Shown here one piece after another: positions 25,608 through 47,060 of a stretch of DNA of 64,000 bases. The translations under genes and the position numbers were made by a program. This stretch comes from Spirosoma sp. KCTC 42546. Lineage in GTDB: Bacteria; Bacteroidota; Bacteroidia; Cytophagales; Spirosomataceae. Within the stretch, counting starts at the first letter, position 1. The number at the start of each line of letters is the position of its first letter. The stretch lies in NCBI RefSeq assembly GCF_006965485.1, contig NZ_CP041360.1:7358501-7422500 (forward strand), in the 5' to 3' direction. The notes beneath the pieces are model-generated. The model worked only from the letters and a program-made list of their open reading frames with translations. It searched no databases and had not been told where the DNA came from.

Positions 25608-26440
25608 ATCAATCACATCAATTATTGATTATAGGCGGTCCTAATGCTGGGAAAACGCACTTTGTATGTCAACTCTATAATCGGTTAGATGCTAAACGTA
25701 GTACTTATCACATGGTTACTGCGCCTTTAGATCTGACAGTAATAAAATCGGTTATAGGCCGATTAGCTCAAGGCTTGTCAGGTGAGCATACTGAAAGCGG
25801 GTTAAATGAAGAAATAAACTTTGTTGTAGCCAATGAATATAAAGAGATCGCGCTTTCTTTTCCCGATTACGCGGGTGAACAAATTCGGACCCTTGTGCGA
25901 GATCGGTTGGTTTCGAGCCGGTGGTACGAACTAATAACGCAATCAGACGAATGGTTACTGCTAATTCGGCCCGATGAAATTCCCACCTTGGAGGACATTA
26001 CGACCCGTGGCCTTGCCAATGTAGAAGATTTGAAATCCAGATTTGCTATAGTGCCTAAGCAAGTGGAGCTGACCCCTCCAAGCTTTTATATTGAACTGCT
26101 CCAGATGATGCTGTACATTAAAGGTAAATCAGTGATTACGCCCGTTATCGAACCACGCCTTACAATAGCGCTATCGTGCTGGGATACCTTAAACCTGTCT
26201 TCATCAGGTATAACGCCATTTGGAGAATTACAAAAGCGATTACCATTCTTGTCAACTTTTCTAGAAACGGTTTGGGCACATGATAGTTGGCGAGTTTGTG
26301 GCTTATCCTCACTAGGCCGAACATTGGATACCAAAGTACCAGATGATGATTTTGTAGATGAAGGACCTGAGACAGCAGGATATTTAGTACTTCCATCAGG
26401 AGAACATGATCCTGATCTAACAAAACTAATTACTTTCTGA
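25604..26440 (+). CDS. Second double-GTPase-like protein
   Basis: 278 residues. The P-loop is IIGGPNAGKTHFVCQLYNRL near residues 8-27, and IALSFPDYAGEQIRTLVRDR supplies the switch II-like DxxG. IALSCWDTLN stands where a base-specificity loop would be, without a clear NKxD. It is adjacent to, and coupled with, the first GTPase by an ATGA overlap; the next gene starts 2 nt after its stop. Two different GTPases in tandem is the defining feature of the predicted DO-GTPase systems. Confidence 0.75.
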   Translation: MNQSHQLLIIGGPNAGKTHFVCQLYNRLDAKRSTYHMVTAPLDLTVIKSVIGRLAQGLSGEHTESGLNEEINFVVANEYKEIALSFPDYAGEQIRTLVRDRLVSSRWYELITQSDEWLLLIRPDEIPTLEDITTRGLANVEDLKSRFAIVPKQVELTPPSFYIELLQMMLYIKGKSVITPVIEPRLTIALSCWDTLNLSSSGITPFGELQKRLPFLSTFLETVWAHDSWRVCGLSSLGRTLDTKVPDDDFVDEGPETAGYLVLPSGEHDPDLTKLITF

Positions 26441-26442
26441 AC

Positions 26443-29022
26443 GTGTCAGTTGTATCTACTTTGCAAATCCATCAAGCATACTTTGGGGCTGTCAATGGCA
26501 CATCGCACGGACAGTTAGTTAGTAGTCTGACCGATACTTATCTACGTTCTTTTTTATCTGGGATTACTGACCGTCCAGAAGCTTTACCAACGGGATTTGA
26601 AATTTCCCCTTATCTATCAGCTACTACATATAGAGGCTACTATATTCTTTGGCGAACTTGGTCCGACAACGAAGCAAAAAGATTGGGAATGGTATTTACA
26701 CATGTCCTTATTCTATCAGTTCAAGATTTGCCTAGAATCCCCGAGTTAAGTTCTGTTTTGAGCTTATTGTTAGACAAGCCGCTTCCAGTGGCACAACAGC
26801 CAACTTCGTTGGGTCCATTATCATTATCTTTAATCGATCATCAAAAGATAGAGCCAGTCGGTGCCGTTCCAGAAAGTTGGTTAACAATAATCAATCAAAT
26901 GATTGATTGGCATCCTGGACTATTACCAATTTTTGTATCAGGAGAAGCCGATCAATTTCAAAAATTATTAGAGGATCTATGGCGTGGTTTACCAGGCACC
27001 TTAAGAGGCTTATTAGGATTTGGAATCAGGTTCACTCCACCCAATAAACCCAACTCAGCCTTGCCGATGCTTGTATATATACCTGTTGAATTGGAGGACA
27101 AATGGCGAAGTAAGCAAATAACTAAACTAGACATTAATCTAGTAAAAACACCAGAGGCCCCAATCGAGCAGCTAATATTGAATGGACAGCTGGGTCATGA
27201 CTTTCTTGAATTTATCAATAATCTGGACTTATCTCTAGAAAATTTTAGGGCTCTAAATTTATGCCAGCGTGCTTATGTGCAGTTTAAGAGTTTACAGCCT
27301 TCTGAATTAGATGCTGGTAAGTTGCTAGCCTTACTCAGATCGTTAAGACAATTGCAACCAGACCCTCATAAAGCTGTAGAAATTAAGCGTTCAACCATAA
27401 AATTATTAGCAGAGGCATTGCCAGTTGTTGGTGTTAAGGAAGCAATGGGCCTACGAAACCTACCTTTAACAGCTTTTCCGCCTGAAGACCAGCTTTTAGA
27501 AGTAGCTTTAGAACAAATAGTGATTGACGTTATTAAAGCCCCTAAGCCCAATGAAGATTTACAGAAAAACTTACTGGGCTATCTGGTCGATACGAACGCG
27601 GAAAATATTGAACCGTGGTGGCGCCAAACAGCTCTCAAAGCATTTGAACAGAGTATAGTACAAGATTCCATGCACACTGCTAAAGTAATATGGCTTGGGG
27701 TTACAAAAACTGAAACAATTCGTGATTATGTTCTGAGTACTGTTCCGAATACAGAGGATTGGGAGCAAATATTAAGTAAGACTATCCCAAGATCACTATC
27801 TATTATGGTAGCAGATAGTGTAACCAGTTTTTGTGTACGTCGGAATTGGTGGGACTTATTTGCAGAAACAGTTGCAGTCGCATTCAAACCCGTAGAAGCG
27901 TTACGAAGACAAATAGAAGCTGAAAAACAGCTTAATATTTCAATATCACCCCGTGTGGATAAGCTGGTAAAGCGACTTTCTGATAGCGAATTAGTAGATA
28001 TAGCTGTAGAATTAACTCATACTCAGCTTTTGGAGCTAGCAGGTGAAGTTTGCGGAAGAGATCCTAAGCAACTTTTACCAATGGATGTGCATATGCAGTC
28101 CTGGCGGACGATATGGTCAATCTCATTAACTTACACTAATTCAATTACAGTTGGATTAAGCAATCCCAAAGAGTCAATCAGCACCTTCTTAAAAGAATTA
28201 GCTTATGGGCGGGCCAGTGACTCCCAACCATTAGAATTGATTGCAGCGTCAACATATGCAAATATCTTGCATTTACCGGAGAGGACTATTATATGGAGCA
28301 GACTACCAACCAAACTTCTTCCGAAATTTGTTTCAACGACTCTCGATGCATTAGTTGAAGAAATATTGGCTGGTAAATGGACAGGTACTATTGAGCCTGT
28401 TTTAATGGAGAAGGCCCGTAGTATAGAATTTATTGGAAAGTTTTTGGGGCAGAAATGGAATGAGCCAGCGGCTGTGCTATCTGTAAATGACGTTCTTCAT
28501 AACTTGTCAGACAATTATCTTAAAGATTATATTCACAATCTTCCCGCAATAAATGGGATTATAGCTGCGCGGTTAGGAAAACTCGTATATCTAAATAATT
28601 GGGATTCATCCGCTAGAACACTTTTAAGCAAAGCGAAGTCTAATACTGATTTCCGACCTGCTTTATATGAGTGTACTGGTATGTTTAATCTTCTGACCAA
28701 ATTCATAAATCATCAATTATTTGGGCACCAAGCAACCTCAATTGAGGCTTGGTATGCTCTTGAGGAGCTTTTGGCTGATTTATACGAAGAAGGTCCGGAT
28801 GGTGAATACAAAATCTGGAAAAAAGCTGGTGGTGACGTAACTAAATTCTCCAATGCCCAAAGCCGCAGGGCGCAATGGACAGAAGCTATACGACTATTAC
28901 GGTATGGAGGGGGAGGAAAAAAGATTTCAGTTGAATCGTTAATTAAAGCTGCGCTTGATGACTATAAAGGCAATTCTAATCTAAAGGCACTAGCTAGCCT
29001 GAAACATTTATTTCAATCATAA
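26443..29022 (+). CDS. GAP1-like protein with C-terminal effector-associated domain
   Basis: 859 residues from GTG 26443. The N-terminus (LQIHQAYFGAVNGTSHGQLV) matches the start of GTPase-associated protein 1 (GAP1) proteins; the long middle is helical. The C-terminal ~90 residues (from ~770) read LLADLYEEGPDGEYKIWKKA, WTEAIRLLRYGG, IKAALDDYKG, which fits the EAD1-type effector-associated domain. The last gene of the operon ends in a similar domain. Homotypic pairing of the two tails would recruit the nucleosidase to the GTPase complex. That mechanism is inferred from published predictions for this system class, not shown here. Confidence 0.75.
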   Translation: MSVVSTLQIHQAYFGAVNGTSHGQLVSSLTDTYLRSFLSGITDRPEALPTGFEISPYLSATTYRGYYILWRTWSDNEAKRLGMVFTHVLILSVQDLPRIPELSSVLSLLLDKPLPVAQQPTSLGPLSLSLIDHQKIEPVGAVPESWLTIINQMIDWHPGLLPIFVSGEADQFQKLLEDLWRGLPGTLRGLLGFGIRFTPPNKPNSALPMLVYIPVELEDKWRSKQITKLDINLVKTPEAPIEQLILNGQLGHDFLEFINNLDLSLENFRALNLCQRAYVQFKSLQPSELDAGKLLALLRSLRQLQPDPHKAVEIKRSTIKLLAEALPVVGVKEAMGLRNLPLTAFPPEDQLLEVALEQIVIDVIKAPKPNEDLQKNLLGYLVDTNAENIEPWWRQTALKAFEQSIVQDSMHTAKVIWLGVTKTETIRDYVLSTVPNTEDWEQILSKTIPRSLSIMVADSVTSFCVRRNWWDLFAETVAVAFKPVEALRRQIEAEKQLNISISPRVDKLVKRLSDSELVDIAVELTHTQLLELAGEVCGRDPKQLLPMDVHMQSWRTIWSISLTYTNSITVGLSNPKESISTFLKELAYGRASDSQPLELIAASTYANILHLPERTIIWSRLPTKLLPKFVSTTLDALVEEILAGKWTGTIEPVLMEKARSIEFIGKFLGQKWNEPAAVLSVNDVLHNLSDNYLKDYIHNLPAINGIIAARLGKLVYLNNWDSSARTLLSKAKSNTDFRPALYECTGMFNLLTKFINHQLFGHQATSIEAWYALEELLADLYEEGPDGEYKIWKKAGGDVTKFSNAQSRRAQWTEAIRLLRYGGGGKKISVESLIKAALDDYKGNSNLKALASLKHLFQS

Positions 29023-30119
29023 TGAAAACAGACATACTAGTTATCACCGCACTAGCATTGGAATTTAAAGCGGTCGAACAACTGCTTATAAATACTATTC
29101 CTATCAGACACCCAACCGGTACATACTATAAACGTGGTTCCTTTACTGCCGGGCAACATACTTTCTCAGTTGCTGTGGTGGAAACTGGTGCTGGTAACGT
29201 TAATTCTGCCCAAGAGACAGAAAGAGCTATTACTTTCTTTCAACCTGAGTATATCTTTTTCGTAGGCATAGCAGGAGGAATAAAAGACGTCCGTATTGGC
29301 GATGTTATTGTCTCTTCAGAAGTTATTCATTATGAAGGCGGCAAGGCAGGTGAAGTTTATAAGCCTCGTCTAAGTACTTATGCAGCCAACTATGAGTTAA
29401 TGTCTTTGGCTAAATTAATAGCTAGGGATAATTCTTGGCAGCATAGAGTTAAGGATAAAATAAACACATATAAAGCTGAAGTCAAGCCAATTGCGGCTGG
29501 AGAAAAAGTAGTCGCTTCAGAGCGCTCGGCGACCTATGAACTCCTGAATCAATATGTAAGTCAAGCATTAGCCGTTGAGATGGAAGGCTACGGTTTTTTG
29601 GCTCCCATACATTCTCATCATGCTAAAGGCATAGTTATTCGAGGAATTTCAGATCTTCTGAATAATAAAGAAGTGGCTGATGCTAGCGGAAGTCAACCCC
29701 TGGCAGCACGTAATGGAACTGCTTTTTTAGCAGAAATGCTGGTAGAACTGGCAAACGAAAACCGACACTCATCGAATACTACCAATGTAATCAATCCTAA
29801 AGTATCAATCATTAAGCCAAATTCAGCAAATCCTCTTGATGATTTGGAGTGGCGAAATCGGTTGACAAAAATTCTGGCAGATCTTTACGAAGTAGGTCCG
29901 ACTGATAACGGTGGTGCCTGGAAACGTGCTGGTGGAAAAATTGGCTTTCTTAGCAACAATAGTTCAAACGAAACACAATGGTTTACCGCCTTAGAACGCT
30001 TAGCAAAAGGCGGTGCTGGCCCCATTACTCTTGAATCACTTCTGAAAACAGTTCAACAAGATTTCGGAGATAATGAAGAAATAAATAATTTATGCAAGTA
30101 TATATCTTTATCTAATTAA
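29022..30119 (+). CDS. Nucleoside phosphorylase/nucleosidase effector with EAD1-like tail
   Basis: 365 residues. Residues 1-~245 are a PNP/MTAN-type purine nucleosidase: ILVITALALEFKAVEQLL, the phosphate or base region VVETGAGNVNSAQ, FVGIAGGIKDVRIGDVIV, the catalytic AVEMEGYGFLA and VIRGISDLL. Such domains cleave nucleosides or nucleotides and act as toxic effectors in several immune systems. Residues ~275-362 (LTKILADLYEVG, WKRAGGKIGFLS, LESLLKTVQQDF) match the C-terminal domain of the preceding gene. The stop and start overlap by one base (TAATG). Likely the output of the operon; the substrate is unknown. Confidence 0.85.
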   Translation: MKTDILVITALALEFKAVEQLLINTIPIRHPTGTYYKRGSFTAGQHTFSVAVVETGAGNVNSAQETERAITFFQPEYIFFVGIAGGIKDVRIGDVIVSSEVIHYEGGKAGEVYKPRLSTYAANYELMSLAKLIARDNSWQHRVKDKINTYKAEVKPIAAGEKVVASERSATYELLNQYVSQALAVEMEGYGFLAPIHSHHAKGIVIRGISDLLNNKEVADASGSQPLAARNGTAFLAEMLVELANENRHSSNTTNVINPKVSIIKPNSANPLDDLEWRNRLTKILADLYEVGPTDNGGAWKRAGGKIGFLSNNSSNETQWFTALERLAKGGAGPITLESLLKTVQQDFGDNEEINNLCKYISLSN

Positions 30120-31977: not shown

Positions 31978-33315
31978 CTAGGCTATCATTCTATAATCCT
32001 GCAATAATTTCAATCGCTCCCGCGCCTGCAATTCGTAAATCAAGGGGATAAACTGGTGATACAAGCTGCATTGGGGGTCTTTGCCATTCACCCGATACAC
32101 TGGACAGCCACTGGTGCAAACCGATCGGTAACGGCAGGACTGGCAGTCTTGAGATTTCATGTCTTCGTAATGGCTTCCCTGCTGGATCATATCCACCAAA
32201 TCTATATTTGTATCAAAGAGGCTATAGGATAGCTGGGTGGGATCACCAAAATGGACATGGCAATAGTTGACCGATCCATCCACATAAATCGCTCCACCCG
32301 AAAAACCAGACGCACAGGTTTGAAAGCCTAACTCACTCGGTTTAAGATCGCAGAATTGGTGGCGAAGGGAAAATCGCCAGCCCTGCCCGATGGCCTCTTT
32401 CATTAACATATAGGATTCCGATAAGTATTTGTCCAGCATTTTCGCATCAATAGCTTCACCTTTCACAATTGAATAGCGAAATGGAACATCCAGGTCGATC
32501 AGGTAACGCGTCAGACGCGGCAAACCAACCAGGTTACTGTTCGTCACCACCGTATTGGTCGATACCGGAATCTGATGAGCGAGCAGTGTCCGCAAATTCC
32601 GATCAATGAGGGCAAAGCTCCCAGCCCCCGCTTTAAACGAGCGGGTACTGTCGTGATCTACATCTAATCCATCCAACGAAATCCCATAGCTGATACCGTA
32701 TTCCTTTGAGAACGCCAATATCTCATCGGTTAAAATGGTTAGATTAGTAATAAACGAGCATTCCAACTGACAACCGATCTCCTGCAAGGTGCTTTTGGCT
32801 TGTGGAATAAAGGTTTTCCAAGCTTTGAACTGGCTTAGCGGCTCTCCTCCAGCTAAGCGCAGTTTGATGGATTTGAGACCTCGTTTTTGAACCGTTTCCA
32901 CAATCTTATTTAGCAACTGCTGGCGTGTCGTCTCCGACATGCCCGACGTGGTGTTAAGCGTTGAGATGTAGCAATAGCTACAGGTCAGATTACACCGATT
33001 GGTAGTGTGAATCCAGAAATTGAGCGATTTCGGACTAGCTGGTTTTCGCGGTGAACTAAACTGCTGGTCAAACCGTATGATTTCGGTTCGAGACAGCAGA
33101 TTCAAAAATCCCTCAACCGTATCAGCGGCAATACCGAATTTCTCGCTTAGGTCTGATACTGAGGTTTGATTATCAATAGCTGCTAGTAGCTCAGACTGTG
33201 CCCGGCTCAGAATCCGCAGTGAATTCGGGTAAGCGCAATTGACAACAAAGGCATGTTGATCATCAATGGGCCTTAATAGCAGTTGTGACGACTTGATGGG
33301 TATGTATGTCTTCAT
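31978..33315 (-). CDS. Radical SAM/SPASM peptide maturase
   Basis: 445 residues. The N-terminal ~80 (SAQSEL-like helix and a winged-helix-like TSVSDLSEKFGI) resemble a peptide-recognition PqqD-type domain. The radical SAM cluster motif is C108-x3-C112-x2-C115 (RCNLTCSYC), followed by KLRLAGGEPL and SYGISLDGLD. The C-terminal SPASM region has the cysteine set FQTCASGF, VNYCHVHFGD, CQSCRYRSVCTSGCPVY and QCSLYH, binding extra Fe-S clusters. SPASM enzymes modify ribosomal peptides by forming thioether, C-C or other crosslinks. The gene overlaps by 53 nt a small ORF that looks like its precursor. No transporter or peptidase gene is adjacent. Confidence 0.92.
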   Translation of the reverse strand: MKTYIPIKSSQLLLRPIDDQHAFVVNCAYPNSLRILSRAQSELLAAIDNQTSVSDLSEKFGIAADTVEGFLNLLSRTEIIRFDQQFSSPRKPASPKSLNFWIHTTNRCNLTCSYCYISTLNTTSGMSETTRQQLLNKIVETVQKRGLKSIKLRLAGGEPLSQFKAWKTFIPQAKSTLQEIGCQLECSFITNLTILTDEILAFSKEYGISYGISLDGLDVDHDSTRSFKAGAGSFALIDRNLRTLLAHQIPVSTNTVVTNSNLVGLPRLTRYLIDLDVPFRYSIVKGEAIDAKMLDKYLSESYMLMKEAIGQGWRFSLRHQFCDLKPSELGFQTCASGFSGGAIYVDGSVNYCHVHFGDPTQLSYSLFDTNIDLVDMIQQGSHYEDMKSQDCQSCRYRSVCTSGCPVYRVNGKDPQCSLYHQFIPLIYELQARERLKLLQDYRMIA

Positions 33316-36698: not shown

Positions 36699-37913
36699 TC
36701 ATCCTAAAATCCGTTCATTGTAATTGTCCAGGATATTGACCGGCAGCCCTTTCAGATAAATTTCGGTAGTTTTTACGCTGGAATGGCCAAGCATCGTGCT
36801 GATCGCTGTCAGCGGAATATCATGTAGCATTGCCTGGGTCGCAAATGAATGTCGGCTCACATAGCTTGTCAGGTTTGAGTCAATACCGCATAGCGAGGCT
36901 AGTAGCTTCAGTTTTTTATTGTACCGTTTTCTGGCCCATTGAATGTCCTTTTCACGTAGGGTTGGCGAGTCCCGTTTCAGGATCGGAAAGACGAACTTGG
37001 AATCGGGGGTTTGTTGCATGTAGTAAACCAGTATGCTTTCAAGCTGTGGGGTAATCTTGATATCGTACAGCTTGCCCGTTTTTCTCCGGCGATACCGCAC
37101 ACGTCCATTCTCTACAGCACTTTTTTCCAGATAAGCCATATCCGCAAAGTTCATCCCGTACATCATGTAGCTGGCAACGAAATAATTCCGCGTATTGAAG
37201 CACAGATGGGCGACCGGAATGTCCAGTTGAATAATCGTTTTAAGAAACTCTCCGTCCAAAGCCCGTTTTTCAGTAGGAGCAGTCTTTATTTTATAGTCAT
37301 CGAATGGATACAATTCTTTATCGGCTACCCCAGACTTAATGGCTTTGTTGTAGATGGCCCTGATTGTCCGCATATAGACGGCCAAGCCATTGGCACCATT
37401 CCCCTTGCTTTTATGATTGGTCTCGAATCTGGCGAGGAAATCATATGTAATCTCTTTGAACAATAAATCCTTACCCTTGCGGTATTCTTTCAAAACACTG
37501 ATTAAGCCCTTATACGATCTGGCCGTACCAACCCGATGCGCTTTAATCAGTTCATCCACGCATTGACTGGCGAATTGCAGAAACGAATCCTTGGCTTCTT
37601 TCTGAGTGATCCGGTCTTTTAAGGACGTGATCGACAAGGTTTGAAGGGTGCCTAATTCATGAAGTTTGAGAATAATGTCCATCGCATCGGTCTTCTCCTT
37701 CTCAATCTGATTATTCAATCGGGTCACGGAACTGACGCCCTTGTAGCTTTTTTTAATAGCTCGTTTTTTCTCATCCCAATCCGCTACAGCAACACTTATT
37801 CCAATGGGGATAGAGGTTGTTTGCGCATTATGGCCCAGCCGCATAATGACCGGATAGGTGCCGTCCTTTTTGGCACGGCGTGTATCTAAGGAAATCACGA
37901 CGTTTGTGTTCAT
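36699..37913 (-). CDS. Tyrosine site-specific integrase, Bacteroidota type
   Basis: 404 residues with the usual layout: N-terminal arm-binding domain (VISLDTRRAKKDGTYPVIMR), SAM-like core-binding domain (~100-205), and C-terminal catalytic domain. Visible active-site parts are YVSRHSFATQAML (arginine in an RHxF box), the second histidine in TMLGHSSVKTT, and the nucleophile in TEIYLKGLP. The length is typical. Its start faces a 3' tRNA-Asn fragment 140 bp away, the expected arrangement for an integrase next to its attachment site. It is therefore the likely integrase of the element that fills the left 38 kb. Confidence 0.95.
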   Translation of the reverse strand: MNTNVVISLDTRRAKKDGTYPVIMRLGHNAQTTSIPIGISVAVADWDEKKRAIKKSYKGVSSVTRLNNQIEKEKTDAMDIILKLHELGTLQTLSITSLKDRITQKEAKDSFLQFASQCVDELIKAHRVGTARSYKGLISVLKEYRKGKDLLFKEITYDFLARFETNHKSKGNGANGLAVYMRTIRAIYNKAIKSGVADKELYPFDDYKIKTAPTEKRALDGEFLKTIIQLDIPVAHLCFNTRNYFVASYMMYGMNFADMAYLEKSAVENGRVRYRRRKTGKLYDIKITPQLESILVYYMQQTPDSKFVFPILKRDSPTLREKDIQWARKRYNKKLKLLASLCGIDSNLTSYVSRHSFATQAMLHDIPLTAISTMLGHSSVKTTEIYLKGLPVNILDNYNERILG

Positions 37914-38055: not shown

Positions 38056-38102
38056 CTGACTGTTAATCAGAGGGTCGCTGGTTCGAGCCCAGCTTCGGGA
38101 GC
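38056..38102 (+). other. 3' tRNA-Asn(GTT) fragment, probable right attachment site
   Basis: The anticodon arm (CTGA, loop CTGTTAA, TCAG), variable loop, T-arm (GCTGG, TTCGAGC, CCAGC) and 3' acceptor strand TTCGGGA plus discriminator G are all present. No matching 5' half (TCCCGAA) precedes them. The anticodon GTT is at 38062-38064. Displaced 3' tRNA ends mark one border of elements that integrate in tRNA genes. The element then lies to the left and the chromosome to the right. Confidence 0.85.
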
Positions 38103-38111
38103 CTGATAATC

Positions 38112-38145
38112 AAGCACTTACATACTTTTTGTAAGTGCTTTTTTT
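38112..38145 (+). terminator. Terminator after the tRNA-Asn end
   Basis: A 10-bp perfect stem (AAGCACTTAC with GTAAGTGCTT) and a 9-nt loop are followed by a run of seven T. It is the expected tRNA transcription terminator, left behind with the displaced 3' end. Confidence 0.85.
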
Positions 38146-38265: not shown

Positions 38266-38523
38266 ATGTTCAAGAGCGCACAGGAAACCAATAAAGCCAT
38301 CACAGTTTAGCTAAAAGAGTAAGTTGATTTACTTGAAAGTAGCAGCTACCTTTCTTGAGCAAAAGGGTATGACCCAGAAGGATCTGTCAGTTGCCCTCCA
38401 AAATCAGAATCAGAAATTTGTAAATGGGACAGTGGCACACATAACTTAGAATTAAAGACAATCATTCGGATTGATGAAGCTCTGGGTGAAAATATTTCAA
38501 CAGTACCAAAACTAAAGTCATAG
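38266..38523 (+). pseudogene. Decayed XRE-family regulator or antitoxin
   Basis: Pieces in different frames read MFKSAQETNKAITV (then stop), FLEQKGMTQKDLSVALQNQ, EICKWDSGTHNLELKTIIRI and DEALGENI. This is the HTH-XRE pattern of small antitoxin-type regulators. In-frame stops and at least one frameshift show it is dead. Confidence 0.7.
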
Positions 38524-38896
38524 TTTGACAACTTTCACCAATCAAAAATTTATATTAACATATAAATACTCTTTTGTATGGTAATATATTATTTATAAGG
38601 AACCATTTATGGGTTGTAACATGCACAACAAAGGCAAAACCTGAAAACGGTTAAGATAAAAATATTGTTGGTGGTAATATCAAGAAGAAACCTAAAGTAG
38701 TGTACCTCTCTGAGATAAATTATAATTATTGGTACAAACCCCTATTAAAACTGTATATTACAGGCAAAAGCTTGTGTTGCTACATAAAACAAGTAAATTC
38801 CAAAACGTAAAATTGAATATTTTTGCAAGGGTCAGCTGTATCTATTGCGACAATTTTCTATAATTATTGCTATAAGACATATAAGCTTAAATTGAG
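38524..38896. other. AT-rich upstream region of the SIS-HAD operon
   Basis: No gene seen. The promoter of the five-gene operon should lie here; the last ~80 bp are AT-rich, but no clear -33/-7 pair could be fixed by eye. Confidence 0.4.
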
Positions 38897-40792
38897 ATGG
38901 GAAAACCATTTAAAAAAGAATTAACAAAGATTAATTCAACAATAGAATGGGCACTTATACAAGAGTCAAATATCTTGCAGTCATTAATAAATGACCCTAA
39001 TAGAAAACCCTTATATATAGTTGGCTCTGGTGGATCTTTAAGCGCATGCTTTTATTTGGAAACTATTTACCAAAAGCTTGGTGGTTTTGCGAAAGCGATA
39101 ACACCACTTGAATTATATTCTTTGAAAGAATCAATTAAAGGATCAAATATCATATTCATTAGCGCAAGCGGAAAAAATAACGATATATTATTTTCATTCG
39201 AACTTTCAATACAAAGAAATCCTAATCAGATATTAACCATAAGTATGAGTGAAGATTCACCGTTGTCAAGACTGGCAAATTCTTACTCTATTAGTAAATC
39301 TATAAACTTCCCTATACCATCAAAAAAAGATGGTTTTTTAGCAACAAATTCCTTGCTCGCCTATTTTATAATACTATGTAAATCAATCAACAAAGATTCA
39401 TCTCTAATCGAAATTCAACATATCAACTATGAATATTATAAAAGAGATTTAAATAATTTTATGCCTAAAATTAAAGAAAACTTCACATTATTTGTTCTAT
39501 ACGGTGGGTGGGGTAAATCTGTAGCTTATGATATAGAATCAAAATTTACTGAAGCTGCTTTAGGTAATGTAATATTATCAGATTATAGAAATTTTGGACA
39601 TGGTAGGCACCATTGGTTTGCAAAAAAAGGGAATAACTCAGCAATCATTTCATTGATTACACCTGAAGAAGAACTATTACAATTAAAAACTATTAATTTA
39701 TTACCTCCAGAAATACCAACATTAGAAATAAAAAGCAATAATACAGACGCTTCTTCTACTATAGAATTATTAGTGAAATCTTTTTTACTAGCAGATGCTT
39801 TCGGCGATTTGCAGAATATAGATCCAGGACGACCAGGAGTTCCAGACTTTGGAAGTAAACTATACCATTTAAAATACGCTAAAATATATAATACCCCTAT
39901 CTCTGATGAACAAACTGCAATATTAAAGAAGAACAATAAATCAGATATTTCACAGTTCGATATTAGTGAATTAAAATTTTGGAAAGAAAAATATGTAAAC
40001 TTTAAAAATAAAATTAATTCAATTCAATTTTATAGTATAGTATTTGATTACGATGGGACACTGTGTTCAGAAACTGAAAAGAAAATAGGGCCCTGTCAAG
40101 AAATAATAAAATACCTGATAAACTTCCTTGAAAATGGTATAATAATAGGTATAGCCAGTGGTAGAGGTAAATCTGTAAAAATAGATTTAAGAAGAGCTAT
40201 TCCTGAAAAATATTGGAATAATGTAATAATAGGATATTATAATGGTTCTGAATTAGGTCTTTTAGGTGATAATAATACGCCAAACGTACAATTAGAAATT
40301 AATGAAGATTTGCAAAAAGTTTTCGACAGATTAGAGATTATAGAAATTATTAGTAAGAATACAAAGATGACTTTACGACCATACCAACTTACAATAGAGT
40401 TAAATGATACAAAAGATACAGTATATGTAAAAAACTTTATACAAAACTTTGTATTGCCGTACGATAATCTACTTTTTTTAATATCAAGCCACTCAATAGA
40501 TATTGTGGTTAAAGGAAAGTCTTCTAAAGTAAGGGTGGTTGATAAGTGTAACGAGATAAGTTTAGAACGCAATGGAATAAATAATTGCTTAACTATAGGC
40601 GACAAAGGTGTTTGGCCAGGAAACGATTATGCATTATTAGGATTGCCTTATTCACTAAGCGTAGATGAAGTATCTCCTGATCCAGATACATGCTGGAATT
40701 TATGTCAAATTGGTTTAAAAAACATTCCAGCAACAATAAATTATTTAAACAAAATTTCTTTCAAAAAAAACCATTTTATGATAAAATTATGA
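38897..40792 (+). CDS. SIS domain fused to HAD phosphatase
   Basis: 631 residues. Residues ~1-180 form a SIS sugar-phosphate-binding domain: YIVGSGGSLSACFYLE, SNIIFISASGKNNDILFSF, and KKDGFLATNSLLAYFI. From ~380 a HAD phosphatase follows: motif I FDYDGTLCS, motif II IGIASGRGKS, a lysine in KGKSSKVRV, and motif IV TIGDKGVWPGNDYALLG, as in the Cof/SPP-like group. Isomerase-type and phosphatase domains on one chain suggest handling of a phosphorylated sugar. It is the first gene of an AT-rich operon with a phosphoribosyltransferase-like, an ATPase and a PfkB gene. Stop and next start overlap as ATGA. Confidence 0.85.
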   Translation: MGKPFKKELTKINSTIEWALIQESNILQSLINDPNRKPLYIVGSGGSLSACFYLETIYQKLGGFAKAITPLELYSLKESIKGSNIIFISASGKNNDILFSFELSIQRNPNQILTISMSEDSPLSRLANSYSISKSINFPIPSKKDGFLATNSLLAYFIILCKSINKDSSLIEIQHINYEYYKRDLNNFMPKIKENFTLFVLYGGWGKSVAYDIESKFTEAALGNVILSDYRNFGHGRHHWFAKKGNNSAIISLITPEEELLQLKTINLLPPEIPTLEIKSNNTDASSTIELLVKSFLLADAFGDLQNIDPGRPGVPDFGSKLYHLKYAKIYNTPISDEQTAILKKNNKSDISQFDISELKFWKEKYVNFKNKINSIQFYSIVFDYDGTLCSETEKKIGPCQEIIKYLINFLENGIIIGIASGRGKSVKIDLRRAIPEKYWNNVIIGYYNGSELGLLGDNNTPNVQLEINEDLQKVFDRLEIIEIISKNTKMTLRPYQLTIELNDTKDTVYVKNFIQNFVLPYDNLLFLISSHSIDIVVKGKSSKVRVVDKCNEISLERNGINNCLTIGDKGVWPGNDYALLGLPYSLSVDEVSPDPDTCWNLCQIGLKNIPATINYLNKISFKKNHFMIKL

Positions 40793-41904
40793 AACTAGAG
40801 ATAGTTCAAGGTCTTTTGCATAAAGTGGCATCGGGTATGTTCAGCGATGACGAATTGGCAGATAATGGTATTTTCTTCCAGACAATGGCCAAATTTAAGT
40901 ATGATGGATACAAACAGTATGCACCTGGGATGCGTTTTCTTGAACGATTTGCATTGTGGTTACAACAATTTGATGACATCAATGATAGAAAAATAGCGTT
41001 TAATTTTGTTAAAAATAAATTAATTTACATATCAGGTCCTGAAATGGATCTTTTAGTTTCGTCTTCCTACCCAGATGTAGTAAAACCTATATTAGGCAGA
41101 TCTGTCGCTGAAAAACTAGGAATACCAGAATATAAAATTAACAAAATATATGATAATATTCACTTCAAATCATTGTTACGTCAGTCTTTATTCTGTGGTT
41201 TAAGTGATGGTGCAAGAACAGAAATTTTCAGAAGAGCAAATAATAACTTTTTATCGCATGAGCAAATATATCAGACATATGAATTATCTGACAAGAGGGC
41301 AACAAAAATGAAAGAAGAATTAACTTCTGATCAGATAAATATACTAGGTAGAGTGCCTAGTAATGAAGAAAGTAAATTTAAATTTCTATTCTTATTAGAC
41401 GACTTTTCTGCAAGTGGCACTTCATATCTAAAATATAATACATTAACGAATACTTTTAAAGGCAAAATTAACGCTTTATATGAAAATATATATAATAGAA
41501 ATAATTTGAGTGATGTATTTGATTTGAATAACTTAGAGGTACACATTATCTTGTATTTATGTACTGAACAAGCGAAAGAAAATATTGAAGCAAATTTAGA
41601 ACTGCTTGCTAATAATTTTTCTTTATCAAAAAAACCTTCGCTTCATGTATCTTGTCTTATTCCAGATTCATATAGAATAACTGATGAAGATATAAAATAC
41701 TTATGCAACAAAGATACTTATTATGATGCTTCTGCGCTAGAGGATAAACATACAGGCACTGTTAAAATGGGATATAGTGATTGTGCATTGCCAATTGTTC
41801 TATATCATAACTGCCCAAATAATTCAGTATCAATCTTATGGGCGTATGAAAATGCAGAATTTCAAGGTTTATTTCCAAGAGTACCAAGACACAAAGAAAT
41901 ATGA
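40789..41904 (+). CDS. Phosphoribosyltransferase-like protein
   Basis: About 371 residues from ATG 40789, which overlaps the previous stop (ATGA); the longer frame from 40690 lies inside the upstream gene. The centre has LFLLDDFSASGTSYLKYNTL near residues 200-218, the acidic pair plus SGT loop that binds PRPP in type I phosphoribosyltransferases. The flanks are helical and unlike standard purine or pyrimidine enzymes. It resembles the PRTase-like proteins reported in predicted conflict systems with ORC/CDC6-like ATPases, but the reaction is unknown. Coupled to the ATPase gene by another ATGA overlap. Confidence 0.75.
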   Translation: MKLEIVQGLLHKVASGMFSDDELADNGIFFQTMAKFKYDGYKQYAPGMRFLERFALWLQQFDDINDRKIAFNFVKNKLIYISGPEMDLLVSSSYPDVVKPILGRSVAEKLGIPEYKINKIYDNIHFKSLLRQSLFCGLSDGARTEIFRRANNNFLSHEQIYQTYELSDKRATKMKEELTSDQINILGRVPSNEESKFKFLFLLDDFSASGTSYLKYNTLTNTFKGKINALYENIYNRNNLSDVFDLNNLEVHIILYLCTEQAKENIEANLELLANNFSLSKKPSLHVSCLIPDSYRITDEDIKYLCNKDTYYDASALEDKHTGTVKMGYSDCALPIVLYHNCPNNSVSILWAYENAEFQGLFPRVPRHKEI

Positions 41905-43847
41905 TTACTGAAATCAATCCTTTTTTTACAAGAGCTTCAGAATACATTGAACTTGATGATAAGTTTTTAAACCTATTTAGCCCAGAGATCCTGAGCATAT
42001 TTAAAAATGAAAGTAATATATGGCGAAATGTAAATATCTTCAGAAGCGCACCAGGTGGTGGTAAAACCACTTTGCTAAGAATGTTTACACCCAAAGTTTT
42101 AAAAAAATTAAAAGAGACAAGTAGACATGATGATCATAATAGAGAGATATTCAATGAGCTAAAAAATCTTCAAGTTTATGACATAGATGGATCTATCCAA
42201 ATAGTAGGTTCAATTGTTCAATTTAACAATGAGTACGTCTCTATACAATTTTTAAATATAAATGAGTATCAAAAAATAAAAGTGTTTGTCGCTTTAGTGA
42301 ATGTGAGAATAATAATATCAATACTTCAAGCTATCTTCTCTTTAAAAGAATTTAAATCAAGCGACGAATTTTCAAGGATTACTTTCGATTTTAGCAATAG
42401 TCAGTTGTTACCAACTGGGTTAAGAAATATTACTAGTGGGCTTAATATATATAATTGGGCATGCGATTTAGAAGAGAGTATTTGTAACAAAATTGATAGT
42501 GTCTACACTGATACAGTTCTTTCAATTGAAGGAGGTGATAGTTTTTATTCATTAGATATTTTTAACTCTGATAACATTCTAATTGATAATCAAAGAATGA
42601 ATGAGAAAATACTTGTCATGTTAGATGATGTACATAATCTTTCTTCTTTTCAAAGAAATCATCTAATAAATTCTATAATAGCTCGCAGACCAAGGGTCAA
42701 TACTTGGGTTTCTGAAAGGTTGAAAGCGCTCACAATGGATGAATTGTTTTCGGAAGGTAATACTGAAGGTAGAGATATGACAACTATTCATTTAGAAAAA
42801 TTTTGGTCTAAAAAATATGTTGCTTTTGAAAAATTTGTCAAATCTGTTGCTAATAGAAGAGTAGCAGCCGTTTTGGATGTACCCCGAGAATTTGCTAGTT
42901 ATTTACGAGAAGATTTTACAGAAGACGATACCCGTAAAATAAAGGCTGCAATACCGATTGTTAAAGAAAGAGTCATAAAAAATTATGGTTCAACTAAGAA
43001 GTATGAAGCATGGATTAGTGACGTAAAACTTAAAGATGACGATTTTTTTGCTGAATTAGTAAATTGGAGAAGTCTTGAAATACTATGCTTCAGAGATAAT
43101 AATAAATCACAAAAAATGTTAAACTTTGGTGAAGATTTTCTTGAAGTAGAAAAGTTAAAGGATCAGCAAGGCTCAGACGTAAATACTGCTGCTCAACTTT
43201 TTTTAAATAAAGAATTTGATATACCGTTTTATTTTGGAATTTCGAAGATAAGTAAATTATCTTCATTTAATATAGAGCAATTTCTTTCATTATCTGGTGA
43301 GTTATTCGAGGATATAAGATATAATGATATTAAAAGGATTGTAAATCCTAACCACAGTTTGGAAATTTCATCATCTAGACAAGAGAAAATACTAAAAAAT
43401 CTAATAAACAACAAAAAGTGGAAAGAATTAACTAACAAAGTGCCCAATTTTTCTAAAATTGAAATATTTCTTAATGCAATTGGTAGCTTTTGTCAACAAG
43501 AAACCTATACGCCAAATGCATGGAATTCTCCAGGATTAAATGCAGTTGCAATTCTTATGCGTGATAGAGATATTTTAAAGGGAGAAGCCCTTATGGATAA
43601 AAGTAATATATATCATAATTTAGCAAAGTGTATTTCAGATTGTATATCATACAACTTAATAGACTTTGAACTAAATTATAAGAATAAGGACAAAACTTTA
43701 ATGATCCTTTATTTGAATAAAATGTATTGCTCTAAATATAATTTACCATTGAACAGGGGCAAGTTCAAAGAAAAAAGACTTAATGAACTATTAAACTGGT
43801 ATAATAATGGTTTCAAAATATCTGCTCAAAAAAGAATAGTTTTATAG
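41901..43847 (+). CDS. ORC/CDC6-like P-loop ATPase
   Basis: 648 residues. The N-terminus (INPFFTRASEYIELDDKFLN) leads into the P-loop NIFRSAPGGGKTTLLRMFTP near residues 45-65. Walker B is ILVMLDDVHNLSSFQRNHLI near residue 237. The C-terminal ~300 residues are helical, with possible winged-helix segments. The layout fits STAND/ORC-type ATPases that serve as sensors or switches. In this operon it is the natural candidate for the regulatory component that activates the enzymes around it. The gene starts within the previous stop. Confidence 0.8.
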   Translation: MITEINPFFTRASEYIELDDKFLNLFSPEILSIFKNESNIWRNVNIFRSAPGGGKTTLLRMFTPKVLKKLKETSRHDDHNREIFNELKNLQVYDIDGSIQIVGSIVQFNNEYVSIQFLNINEYQKIKVFVALVNVRIIISILQAIFSLKEFKSSDEFSRITFDFSNSQLLPTGLRNITSGLNIYNWACDLEESICNKIDSVYTDTVLSIEGGDSFYSLDIFNSDNILIDNQRMNEKILVMLDDVHNLSSFQRNHLINSIIARRPRVNTWVSERLKALTMDELFSEGNTEGRDMTTIHLEKFWSKKYVAFEKFVKSVANRRVAAVLDVPREFASYLREDFTEDDTRKIKAAIPIVKERVIKNYGSTKKYEAWISDVKLKDDDFFAELVNWRSLEILCFRDNNKSQKMLNFGEDFLEVEKLKDQQGSDVNTAAQLFLNKEFDIPFYFGISKISKLSSFNIEQFLSLSGELFEDIRYNDIKRIVNPNHSLEISSSRQEKILKNLINNKKWKELTNKVPNFSKIEIFLNAIGSFCQQETYTPNAWNSPGLNAVAILMRDRDILKGEALMDKSNIYHNLAKCISDCISYNLIDFELNYKNKDKTLMILYLNKMYCSKYNLPLNRGKFKEKRLNELLNWYNNGFKISAQKRIVL

Positions 43848-43850
43848 ATT

Positions 43851-44993
43851 ATGAAATGGGAAAACTATTTTTTAAGATCTGGGCTCGCCTTTAGTGAATT
43901 CTGGGAAAAATACTTGAGTGACAAATCTCGTGAAGTTCTCTTTGTTATGGGTATAGGATTTGATCCCAGAACAACTGTTGGCATAAAGTCGATATTTTCC
44001 TCTAATAGTAATGCTCTAAAATCTGTTTTCGGACTTAGGTATTTCCGTAGAACTGACGAAATTGAATCGTCTAATCATCCCCTTATTGATAAACATTTAA
44101 AAGATATTTCTACTTTTTTAGAACCAGTTGGTTTAACTCTTACAGAAAAGCCAATTATTTTAAGATCAGATGAGGGTAAAAGTATAGCATCTATCAATGC
44201 TACTAAACTTTTAACGATTGAAGACATCAAAGGTTTTTCTGATGTTGTTTTAGATATTAGCGCAATACCCAGAGGGATTTTTCTACCATTGCTTAATAAG
44301 CTATTAGTTTTAGTGAATGATTGGAATAAATCTGCTCATATTGATAATTTGATAAATTTACACGTAATTGTTACTGAAAATTCACAATTAGATTCAAATA
44401 TTCATGACCAAGGAGAAGCTGAAGATGCTATCTTTATTCATGGATTAGCTATTGCTGATACTGCTAAAAGACGAGATGATAAAGAGGTCTGGTTTGCGTT
44501 GCTGGGTGAGGGTCAAACTAAACAATATGAGAAGGTAAGAAAAGATCTTGATCCCGCAGAGGTGTGTCCTATATTACCTTTTCCTTCCCAAGATCTAAAA
44601 AGAGCTGATAAGTTAATGATTGAACATCAACGATTCTTAGTTAATGATTTGAGTTTTGACCCAAAAAATGTTATATACGCCCATGAAGAAAATCCCTTTC
44701 AAGTTTATCGCTTTTTAAAGAACGCAATTGAAAGATTTGAGGTATCTTTGCGCCTTTTAGGTGGTTGTAAAATAATAGTGTCTGCATTTTCAAGCAAACT
44801 ATTTACTGTTGGTGCATTTTTAGCAGTCTTTGAATCCAAAGCTGAGGGTAAAAATATAGGAATTAAGCATGTTGAATCTTTGAATCAAGAACTTGATTTG
44901 GAAGTAAAGAATAGCTTAGACGCAATATTGTCTAATAATAATCTTGTTGAAATTTGGTTAGCCGGCGAACCTTATGCGGAAACTACCATTTGA
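43851..44993 (+). CDS. Rossmann-like protein of unknown function
   Basis: 380 residues with no signal peptide. The pattern is alternating beta strands and helices: EVLFVMGIGFDPRTTVGI near residue 28, DVVLDISAIPRGIFLPLLNK near residue 130, CKIIVSAFSSKLFTVGAFLA near residue 305, and a closing VEIWLAGEPY. The acidic-strand ends and glycine turns suggest a nucleotide-binding Rossmann fold, possibly a ligand sensor, but no catalytic motif is recognised. The gene starts 4 nt after the ATPase and overlaps the kinase gene by 20 nt, so it is an integral part of the operon. Confidence 0.65.
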   Translation: MKWENYFLRSGLAFSEFWEKYLSDKSREVLFVMGIGFDPRTTVGIKSIFSSNSNALKSVFGLRYFRRTDEIESSNHPLIDKHLKDISTFLEPVGLTLTEKPIILRSDEGKSIASINATKLLTIEDIKGFSDVVLDISAIPRGIFLPLLNKLLVLVNDWNKSAHIDNLINLHVIVTENSQLDSNIHDQGEAEDAIFIHGLAIADTAKRRDDKEVWFALLGEGQTKQYEKVRKDLDPAEVCPILPFPSQDLKRADKLMIEHQRFLVNDLSFDPKNVIYAHEENPFQVYRFLKNAIERFEVSLRLLGGCKIIVSAFSSKLFTVGAFLAVFESKAEGKNIGIKHVESLNQELDLEVKNSLDAILSNNNLVEIWLAGEPYAETTI

Positions 44994-46032
44994 CAATACT
45001 GTTCAGCCTATTTGTGTAGGTTCTGGACTCGTTGCCCTTGACGTTGTTATCAGTAATGATCCAGCAACATCTGCCCAGTTTTTTGCTGGAGGGTCATGTG
45101 GTAATGTACTATGTATCTTATCATATTTTGGATGGTCTTCTTATCCTGTAGCAAGATTGTCAAATAATGTTGCCACTCAAATTCTAATTGAGGACTTTCT
45201 CAAATGGAATATCAAGACCGATGCAATCTCTGTAACTTCGGATGGTAGCACTCCAATAATTATTCAAAGAATAATTAAAAATAAAAAGGGAAAGTTAAAG
45301 CATAGGTTTGAGTTTAGAAACCCAGAAAATGGTGAATATCTTCCTTCTTTCAAGCCTGTTCTTGCTAAATCTGTCTCTACTATTGTTGCTTCTATAGAAT
45401 CTTGTGATGTATACTTCTTTGATAGAATAAGTCGTTCATCAATCGATCTTGCATTAGAATATAAAAGACAAGGTTCTCTAGTTTTCTTCGAACCATCTAA
45501 TTTTAAAGATTTTAATGAGTTTAATAAATGTTTGGAATTTTCGGATATTGTTAAGTTTTCTAATGATAGGATAAGTGATTATGATGTGCATTACCCTTAT
45601 TGCGTTGCGCCACTCGAAATACAAACTTTAGGAGATAAGGGACTTCAGTTCAGGCTTAAAGGTGATAAGATTTGGTCACATGTACCTGGTTACAATATCG
45701 AGACATTAGTTGATGCTGCTGGTGCTGGTGATTGGTGCACTGCAGGTATAATCATGTATCTAAGGTCATTGAATATTAAAAACTTGCTTAATATAACCCC
45801 TTCTGAAATTTTTGAAGCAGCGAGATTTGGGCAATTATTAAGTGCTTTTAATTGCGGTTATGAGGGTGCAAGGGGATTAATGTATAATTATAGTAAGAAT
45901 GTTTTTATCGCCCATTTAAACGAAATTATAAATACTTTCTCTGGTTTGCTAGTTATCAAGAATTCTACTGAAGTACGGTATCGTCAATCAAAAGATAATA
46001 TAAACATTTCCTCTTTAACTGAACCAATTTAA
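44974..46032 (+). CDS. PfkB/ribokinase-family carbohydrate or nucleoside kinase
   Basis: 352 residues. PfkB features: an N-terminal glycine-rich segment (ICVGSGLVALDVVI, FAGGSCGNVLCILSYFGW), a central FFEPSN, and the signature anion-hole/catalytic motif TLVDAAGAGDWCTAGII near residue 250, where D is the catalytic base. It would phosphorylate a sugar, nucleoside or related alcohol. Together with the SIS-HAD and PRTase-like genes it points to sugar-phosphate or nucleotide chemistry. Last gene of the operon. About 425 bp of noncoding DNA follows. Confidence 0.88.
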   Translation: MRKLPFDNTVQPICVGSGLVALDVVISNDPATSAQFFAGGSCGNVLCILSYFGWSSYPVARLSNNVATQILIEDFLKWNIKTDAISVTSDGSTPIIIQRIIKNKKGKLKHRFEFRNPENGEYLPSFKPVLAKSVSTIVASIESCDVYFFDRISRSSIDLALEYKRQGSLVFFEPSNFKDFNEFNKCLEFSDIVKFSNDRISDYDVHYPYCVAPLEIQTLGDKGLQFRLKGDKIWSHVPGYNIETLVDAAGAGDWCTAGIIMYLRSLNIKNLLNITPSEIFEAARFGQLLSAFNCGYEGARGLMYNYSKNVFIAHLNEIINTFSGLLVIKNSTEVRYRQSKDNINISSLTEPI

Positions 46033-46457: not shown

Positions 46458-47060
46458 TTACAATATGTCTAGTTTCTTCTTAATCCATTCATGCAGCGTA
46501 CTTTCTGAGCAGCCGTAGCGCCTGGCAATAAACTTCTTGGTCGACCCATTAGCCAGCAGGGCCCGAATCTCGACCGCTTTCTCATCCAGCTTGGATTTAC
46601 CGGGGCCTTCAGGGCGGCCAATCCGTTTGCCACTGGCAACGGCCTTACGCTGGCCCGCTTTGGTGCGTTCGGAGGTTAGCCGTAATTCAAACTGGCCCGT
46701 GGCGGCAAGTACCGAAAATATAAGATCCGAAACGGGCGAGCCGTCCAGAACAATGTTTTCCCGGATTAAATGCAGTACAGCTTTCTTGTGGCGGATCACA
46801 TCAGCCATCTGGTGGATCTCGGAGGTTGAGCGGCCCAGGCGGTACATTTCCGGCTCGATGAGAATATCGCCCTCCTGAAGCAAGTCTAGAATCTGGGCCA
46901 CCTTGCGGGATCGCCAGTTAACTTTTCCGGAAATTTTCTCCTGCTGAAATTCGACGGGACCGATCCCGAGTTTATTGGCATACTCCAGCACGAGCAAACG
47001 GTCTTTATCCAGATCCTGCTCTTCGGTACTGACCCGCAGATACGAGTAGGTTGTAGGCAT
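46458..47060 (-). CDS. Small serine recombinase (resolvase/invertase)
   Basis: 200 residues. The catalytic serine is in YSYLRVSTEEQDLDKDR, the arginine region in DILIEPEMYRLGRS, and the dimerisation helix carries RTKAGQRKAVASGKRIGRP. The C-terminal HTH (STKKFIARRYGCSESTLHEW) binds DNA. Size and layout match resolvases of plasmids and transposons, which recombine short res or hix sites. It has no inverted flanks that I could see. It marks the end of the accessory region. Confidence 0.92.
   Translation of the reverse strand: MPTTYSYLRVSTEEQDLDKDRLLVLEYANKLGIGPVEFQQEKISGKVNWRSRKVAQILDLLQEGDILIEPEMYRLGRSTSEIHQMADVIRHKKAVLHLIRENIVLDGSPVSDLIFSVLAATGQFELRLTSERTKAGQRKAVASGKRIGRPEGPGKSKLDEKAVEIRALLANGSTKKFIARRYGCSESTLHEWIKKKLDIL

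Follow-up and report, generated by a model that had tools for sequence, protein, structure and literature searches.

Closest described systems

Operons in which a DNA methyltransferase is linked to a phosphoribosyltransferase (PRTase) of the PRTase-CE family, an ORC/Cdc6-like ATPase and a CARF6 protein resemble most closely the operon treated here. It lies at 38897-46032 of a stretch of 64,000 nucleotides from Spirosoma sp. KCTC 42546 (NZ_CP041360.1, positions 7,358,501 to 7,422,500; the whole stretch is called the window below) and encodes, in order, a SIS-HAD protein, the PRTase-CE, the ORC-like ATPase, the CARF6 protein and a PfkB-family kinase. The three middle families are the same and stand in the same order as in the methyltransferase-linked operons, which like the present one also occur on plasmids. 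These operons have a methyltransferase, often with the FAD-dependent thymidylate synthase ThyX or a dUTPase, where the window has SIS-HAD and PfkB; the PRTases seen in them are of 309-321 amino acids against 371 in the window, and their matches to the hidden Markov models (HMMs) built from the window and plasmid copies are weak. Our preferred reading, to which we give a probability of roughly 0.48, is that the five genes form a mobile two-module defence system in which the SIS-HAD/PfkB pair would set the ligand read by CARF6 and the ORC-like ATPase before the PRTase attacks nucleotides.

PRTase-CE, ORC-CDC6-like and CARF6 already have family names, and published predictions are said to include the methyltransferase version. 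In the literature searched we found no description of the five-gene version with SIS-HAD and PfkB, of its conservation or of the apparent cassette exchange reported below; Nicastro et al. 2023, from which the PRTase-CE family is reportedly known, lay outside that coverage and may already mention it.

Other described systems share smaller parts with the operon. A family of kinase-AAA-CARF fusions was noted in 2014, in the sections cited here of Makarova et al. (PMC4012209); these STK-AAA-CARF fusions (PADLOC CARF6--CARF_STK_AAA) also join an ORC-like ATPase to a CARF6 domain, an architecture encountered in this analysis at L143 and L144, and they differ by having a kinase instead of a PRTase and no sugar enzymes. 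Type III retrons, described in part of PMC12548924 as a PRTase effector with a winged-helix protein, have a PRTase of the same superfamily (PADLOC PRTase_III-A), whereas the window operon has no reverse transcriptase among its five genes and other switch proteins. The signal modules of Ter systems (PMC7824862, in the part that deals with them) place a PRTase and a HAD protein together in a conflict operon; the window operon has no TerB, TerC or TerD among its five genes, and its PRTase belongs to another module than its HAD protein.

The operon and its five proteins

The first-pass annotation, which a model had made from the letters, described a tight operon on one strand, with intact motifs and in AT-rich DNA, and this description holds. 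The five-gene operon is real and intact, with all five open reading frames (ORFs) on the + strand. The longest ORF of the PRTase begins at 40690; its conserved start is M34 of that ORF, at 40789 (Met in 78 of 79 aligned sequences). With this start the genes are closely packed at each of the four junctions: the PRTase start overlaps the SIS-HAD stop in an ATGA, another ATGA overlap follows at 41901-41904, the ORC and CARF6 genes are 3 nucleotides apart and the CARF6 and PfkB genes overlap by 20 nucleotides. The G+C content per gene is 29-34%, against 41.6% for the whole window. Catalytic or core residues are conserved in all five proteins; the counts below come from all 72-80 available sequences per protein.

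SIS-HAD (38897..40792, 631 amino acids) carries a region resembling NagB-II, a sugar-phosphate isomerase/deaminase, followed by a predicted HAD-IIB (Cof-type) phosphatase, which matches Pfam Hydrolase_3 at E=7.7e-6. The nearest solved relative of the SIS part is the glucosamine-6-phosphate deaminase NagB-II (8eol, E=2.8e-6), and this part is probably a double SIS with isomerase/deaminase function. GSGG, E214, E219, H235, K345, DxDGT, K544, GD568-569 and GND575-577 are conserved in 78-80 of the 80 sequences, and of the HAD residues D384, D386, T388, K544, D569, N576 and D577 are invariant or nearly so. The E, H and K residues of the SIS part presumably correspond to catalytic residues of the GlmS type. 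The other enzyme of the pair, a sugar/nucleoside kinase of the PfkB family (44974..46032, 352 amino acids; PF00294, E=5e-8), keeps its catalytic GAGD-type D253 in 72 of 72 sequences; its nearest solved relatives are PH1459, ketohexokinase and fructokinase, which do not fix the substrate. A CPxCG motif, like part of a zinc ribbon, stands in the middle of the kinase in 10 of 10 PfkB proteins inspected from outside Bacteroidota (e.g. L101, L126), and its cysteines are missing from the PfkB of the window and from three other Bacteroidota copies inspected. An isomerase, a phosphatase and a PfkB kinase are also found together in heptose synthesis, as GmhA, GmhB and HldE; the window enzymes differ in being of the NagB-II-like SIS and HAD-IIB types, with no nucleotidyltransferase among the five genes.

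The PRTase (40789..41904, 371 amino acids from the conserved start), the likely effector, belongs to PRTase-CE (PF24390, E=6e-24, 85.7 bits against a cut-off of 27). It also matches PADLOC PRTase_III-A at E=1.1e-15, a name which we take to mean retron type III-A. The Asp pair of its phosphoribosyl pyrophosphate loop, D237-D238 in the numbering of the long ORF, is kept in 79 of 79 sequences, and a search of PDB sequences gave one weak match, to an orotate PRTase (E=0.039). The likely switch is the ORC/Cdc6-like AAA+ ATPase (41901..43847, 648 amino acids), which matches PF24389 (ORC-CDC6-like) over residues 52-621 at E=6e-25, with 88.3 bits against a cut-off of 27. Its Walker A K55 is present in 77 of 78 sequences and its Walker B D242-D243 in 78 of 78, with R273 and R291 invariant or nearly so; PDB sequences yielded P-loop similarities only, the best at E=0.0048. 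When 395 genomes of the phylum were searched with PF24389, 102 had a match, 25 of them above the cut-off, and most matches were short P-loop pieces; long relatives numbered seven by appearance, the window's own counted.

The fourth protein (43851..44993, 380 amino acids) had been called Rossmann-like, and this must be replaced: it is a CARF6 homologue, which matches PADLOC PDLC01910 over its whole length (residues 1-376, E=9.8e-92) and has no real match in Pfam. It is a predicted ligand sensor. G36, F37, D38, R40, D135 and D181 are kept in 77 of 77 sequences, and the single match among PDB sequences has E=0.84.

The five genes as one unit

The plasmid survey was made with tblastn against 72,556 plasmids, with CARF6, SIS-HAD, PRTase and ORC as the queries (PfkB and NADAR were not among them). 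CARF6, SIS-HAD and PRTase each matched 18 records and ORC 17, and 17 records were common to all four. Sixteen of the 18 CARF6 records were opened, of which 15 belong to the shared 17; PfkB is also present in 14 of these 15, the exception being Rhizobium lentis, and genes are broken in two of them (several in L048, the PRTase in L034). The sixteenth opened record, L049, has a CARF6 remnant only. The hosts are mostly alphaproteobacteria, with Paraburkholderia and, on an actinobacterial plasmid, Paenarthrobacter in addition.

For the genomes, a SIS-HAD alignment was used to scan 84,980 species genomes. This gave 316 confirmed relatives, the best 80 of which were analysed (the weaker 236 were left out) with HMMs built from the window and the plasmid copies. 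All five genes are found at 71 of these 80 loci, and at 70 of the 71 they follow the order SIS-HAD, PRTase, ORC, CARF6, PfkB on one strand, PfkB being reversed in the remaining one. The nine incomplete loci are cut off by a contig end 0-1.7 kb beyond the last gene detected; PfkB alone is missing from four of them, where 0.5-1.7 kb of contig remain, and there the absence may be true. Counted from longest-ORF starts, successive junctions overlap or have a spacing of at most 20 nucleotides in 76/78, 77/78, 76/76 and 55/70 cases. The set spans about 12 phylum-level groups, with carrier titles that include Bacteroidota, Chloroflexi, Armatimonadetes, cyanobacteria, Acidobacteria, Desulfuromonadaceae, Planctomycetes, Proteobacteria, Nitrospirae, Myxococcota and Poribacteria. 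Since the same order recurs across many phyla the set is not a product of chance, and chance neighbours are rejected by the co-occurrence on plasmids together with the 71 complete genome loci. The five genes form one unit that persists in distant genomes.

A plain sugar-catabolism or housekeeping operon would also hold such enzymes, for SIS, HAD-IIB and PfkB proteins are common in sugar pathways (this is partly general knowledge). The distribution rejects it. The CARF6 profile found only the window's own protein among 390 genomes of the order, with none in the 17 listed genus-mates, and SIS-HAD was found only in the window's own genome among 200 genomes of the family. Such a rare accessory set, which occurs on plasmids and here stands beside recombinases, whose three middle genes are not catabolic and which has no transporter among its five genes, is very unlikely to be housekeeping.

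Two modules

For 71 operons, those of 70 loci plus that of the window, pairwise protein distances were correlated. Within the trio of PRTase, ORC and CARF6 the correlation is 0.95-0.96 and between SIS-HAD and PfkB it is 0.91, whereas between trio and sugar pair it is 0.66-0.70; the maximum for any pair in 500 permutations was 0.133. As all loci share ancestry effects, the contrast between the groups outweighs the level of the correlations. The trees tell the same story for 28 of the 71 operons. They were made by a quick method without bootstrap and the clades were picked after the trees had been seen, a post hoc choice which weakens the p-values and not the pattern. A clade of nine rows which includes the window recurs in each of the three trio trees (PRTase, ORC, CARF6); the SIS-HAD data reject it (approximately unbiased test, p-AU 7.6e-19), and so do the PfkB data (p-AU 4.7e-61). 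Conversely, the SIS-HAD and PfkB trees both hold a clade of four rows (L069, L070, L074, L076) which the PRTase, ORC and CARF6 data reject (p-AU 1.7e-67, 4.3e-8 and 1.2e-4). One tree test showed no contrast, the grouping of the window with L050 not being rejected by the sugar data (p 0.67). The single-protein alignments comprise 69 of 77 CARF (A5), 49 of 78 ORC (A6), 36 of 72 PfkB (A7) and 47 of 79 PRT (A8) sequences, whereas the residue counts given above draw on all of them.

The trio and the SIS-HAD/PfkB pair are thus separate genetic modules that reassort. As the trio lies between SIS-HAD and PfkB, its three genes appear to have been exchanged as a cassette. The first-pass annotation had proposed that the enzymes make or degrade one sugar-phosphate or nucleotide signal or toxin, with the ATPase as a switch. 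The ATPase is kept here as the likely switch; the single signal now looks less likely than a sensor/effector trio with a separable sugar pair, as the PRTase groups with ORC and CARF6 rather than with the sugar enzymes and other loci have the trio but lack the pair.

The same results bear on a biosynthetic line in which SIS-HAD and PfkB would prepare a sugar phosphate, the PRTase would join a base to it, CARF6 would sense the resulting nucleoside-like signal or toxin, and NADAR, where present, would destroy it. The chemistries of SIS, HAD, PfkB and PRTase fit such a line in principle; PRTase and HAD signal makers have been described for Ter systems (PMC7824862, same part); and NADAR, a predicted ADP-ribose-processing enzyme, is encoded at 8 of the 16 opened plasmid loci. 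It is encoded at only 2 of the 80 genome loci, however, and the PRTase co-evolves with ORC and CARF6 (0.95), less with SIS-HAD (0.70) and PfkB (0.67), has a tree which differs from those of the sugar enzymes, and occurs with ORC and CARF6 where the pair is absent. The module structure weakens this alternative, which we regard as unlikely; as a first choice, one linear biosynthetic pathway is rejected by the distance correlations and the trees.

Sister systems with other partners

Ten sister loci, L140-L149, of 12.8-18 kb each, were compared; at the nine detailed below, L142 being left out, the trio or parts of it stand with other partners. In Bacteroidota, L140 has a methyltransferase followed by PRTase-CE, ORC and CARF6, and in L141 a Dam-type methyltransferase and a calcineurin-like phosphoesterase accompany ORC and CARF6. 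At L143:7060-10770 and L144:6385-10004, also in Bacteroidota, a protein kinase is joined to an ORC-like domain with CARF6 fused or adjacent, and at L144 a DNA methyltransferase adjoins these genes. A plasmid search with the ORC protein of L140 gave ten records; five were opened, and in all five PRTase-CE and CARF6 genes flank ORC. An N6/N4 methyltransferase is present on L145, L146 and L147 and an annotated N-6 DNA methylase with a dUTPase on L148, while ThyX stands near PRTase-CE, ORC and CARF6 on the rhizobial plasmids L145, L146 and L149. HMMs for SIS-HAD, PfkB and NADAR had no match at E<=0.01 in any of the ten loci, and the trio proteins of these loci are distant from those of the window (best 30.7 bits). 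In the window the trio stands in order, without a DNA methyltransferase among the five genes, and is flanked by SIS-HAD and PfkB. From the sister loci it follows that a general core, consisting of the trio or at a minimum of ORC and CARF6, takes varied partners, SIS-HAD and PfkB being one set of these.

This invites comparison with restriction-modification. The sugar pair might take the place of the methyltransferase, ThyX or dUTPase and maintain DNA, nucleotides or a metabolite in a "self" state which restrains the trio and which invaders lack. A methyltransferase beside ORC-CARF6 and PRTase-CE (beside the calcineurin-like protein in L141) at L140, L141, L145, L146, L147 and, by annotation, L148 speaks for this, as do ThyX and dUTPase at the plasmid loci named, the lack of HMM matches at E<=0.01 to the sugar enzymes and NADAR at the sister loci, and a dUTPase/dCTP-deaminase-like gene after SIS-HAD in one five-gene locus, L079. 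Yet the five genes include no glycosyltransferase or other DNA-modifying enzyme, SIS, HAD and PfkB are small-molecule enzymes, and there is no known modified base. We consider this alternative, too, to be improbable.

Two side observations concern plasmids with these systems. A plasmid of Rhizobium tumorigenes (L042) carries two PRTase-ORC-CARF6 trios with one set of SIS-HAD, PfkB and NADAR, and a gene of the "RHE_PE00001 family" recurs near both types of system at several rhizobial plasmid loci, e.g. L034, L044, L045 and L149.

Defence context and the CRISPR question

The earlier annotation asked for defence genes in the neighbourhood, and in some genomes they lie beside or inside the block. 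Extra ORFs stand between CARF6 and PfkB at 10 of the 80 loci, all in Bacteroidota and, by their titles, mostly from gut samples; the inserts that were profiled are AbiEi with AbiEii (L090), AAA_21 (L100) and AAA_14-DUF4143 (L103). The nearest neighbour on each side was taken by the longest-ORF rule, very long or cut ORFs being dropped; this left 143 neighbours, of which 138 were scanned, with PADLOC matches that include SoFic, PD-T7-1, PD-T7-5, AbiEii and GajB. No reverse transcriptase is found among the five proteins or among the 25 commonest of the 121 Pfam families of these neighbours, a check in which the flanking ORFs of the window were scanned in part and a retron non-coding RNA was not searched for.

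With a CARF6 profile match, the operon might supply accessory effectors to a type III CRISPR system, CARF6 reading cyclic oligoadenylate made by Cas10. The Cas10 palm was searched for in 51 genomes, the window's own and 50 of the 80 carriers, many of which are incomplete assemblies. Twelve have a match at E<=0.001, 11 of them above the family cut-off, which would suit such a set. The window's complete genome (G000) has none, 39 of the 51 have none at this threshold, and only 5 have one at E<=1e-13; the weaker matches are probably GGDEF proteins, since the profile also matches in E. coli. On this search the CRISPR accessory set is rejected, and we hold it to be extremely improbable. With 39 of 51 carriers lacking a Cas10 match, the ligand of CARF6 is not generally made by CRISPR systems and must usually come from elsewhere.

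A model for the operon

We infer the defence role, the order of signalling, the ligand and the PRTase as the killer as follows. Module 1 would be PRTase-CE, the ORC/Cdc6-like ATPase and CARF6, and module 2 SIS-HAD and PfkB. The least certain step is the control that SIS-HAD and PfkB would exert over the amount of a small phosphorylated sugar or nucleotide, or over a self-state. CARF6 would read this small phosphorylated sugar or nucleotide. When infection alters the ligand, or when DNA engages the ORC-like ATPase, the ATPase would switch and license PRTase-CE, which would break or consume nucleotides via the ribose-phosphate bond, so that the infected cell is stopped.

The PRTase is placed as the effector because type III retrons usually have related PRTases as their effectors (PMC12548924, in the sections cited here), and because a DprA-PRTase pair, in which the PRTase is the suggested effector, gives protection from T7 and lambda (PMC9122126, likewise in part). 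ATPases of the ORC/Cdc6 family recur in defence systems, as far as the relevant sections of PMC12839542 and PMC10853773 go.

Several points weigh against the model. In the Pfam tally of the 138 neighbours integrases and transposases come first, and many ordinary enzymes appear; these tallies are without a control set, and the number of neighbours with any defence-family match is not given. Neither CARF6 nor SIS-HAD matched any of 50,697 phage records, and a relative of either was found on only 4 IMG/VR contigs, so there is little link from the phage side. The same sections of PMC12548924 report that the type III-A retron Bpu1 failed to protect against the phages it was tested with, and that the introduction of another, Ppe1, into E. 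coli did not succeed, presumably because of toxicity. The Pfam SIS match (1.1e-4, 22.5 bits) is just under the cut-off of 25, and the reading of this part as an isomerase depends on a similarity of E about 1e-6. The operon may instead have a role in plasmid competition or stress.

A narrower version of the two-module model, which we find quite doubtful, would have a non-CRISPR CARF protein gate immunity on a phosphorylated sugar or sugar-nucleotide made or removed by its own SIS-HAD/PfkB pair, with the trio as an exchangeable cassette and the sugar pair in place of the DNA-methylation or thymidylate/dUTP enzymes of the sister systems. If the two-module model is right, a nucleotide-attacking core controlled by ORC and CARF6 can run on diverse chemistries, i.e., DNA methylation, thymidylate/dUTP control or sugar-phosphate metabolism, and where Cas10 is absent from a genome the ligand of its CARF proteins would become tractable. 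The strict gene order across about 12 phylum-level groups and the apparent exchange of the trio make the mechanism testable by gene removals and module swaps.

Genomic surroundings

The source genome is a single contig of 8.66 Mb. The border of an element, beside which the operon had been said to lie, was found. The 3' half of a tRNA-Asn with downstream bases is repeated at 38056..38140 (+), outside the operon; the second copy, at G000:C1:7356480-7356567 (91% identity), overlaps the intact tRNA-Asn about 2 kb to the left of the window. As this repeat stands beside a tyrosine recombinase gene (36699..37913, -; Phage_integrase and Arm-DNA-bind_5), it marks the border of a neighbouring island of about 40 kb. 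The operon begins 757 nucleotides past this border; it therefore adjoins the island, and membership in it is not proven. On the other side of the operon lies a recombinase gene of the resolvase family (46458..47060, -; Pfam Resolvase 2.9e-25). A search for an empty site via the right flank of the operon in 21 genomes of the genus gave scattered partial matches only.

Between the border and the operon, at 38325-38525 (+), there is what resembles, judged by eye, a degenerate gene of an XRE-type helix-turn-helix protein. Within the island, 23342-30119 holds a GTPase-associated conflict operon with GASH, two double-GTPases, GAP1-N1 with EAD1 and a protein of the phosphorylase superfamily, and it includes a PADLOC effector match. 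The island also encodes, at 31978-33315 (-), a radical-SAM protein with moderate likeness to prokaryotic viperins (pVip 1.6e-16), which may belong to another radical-SAM family.

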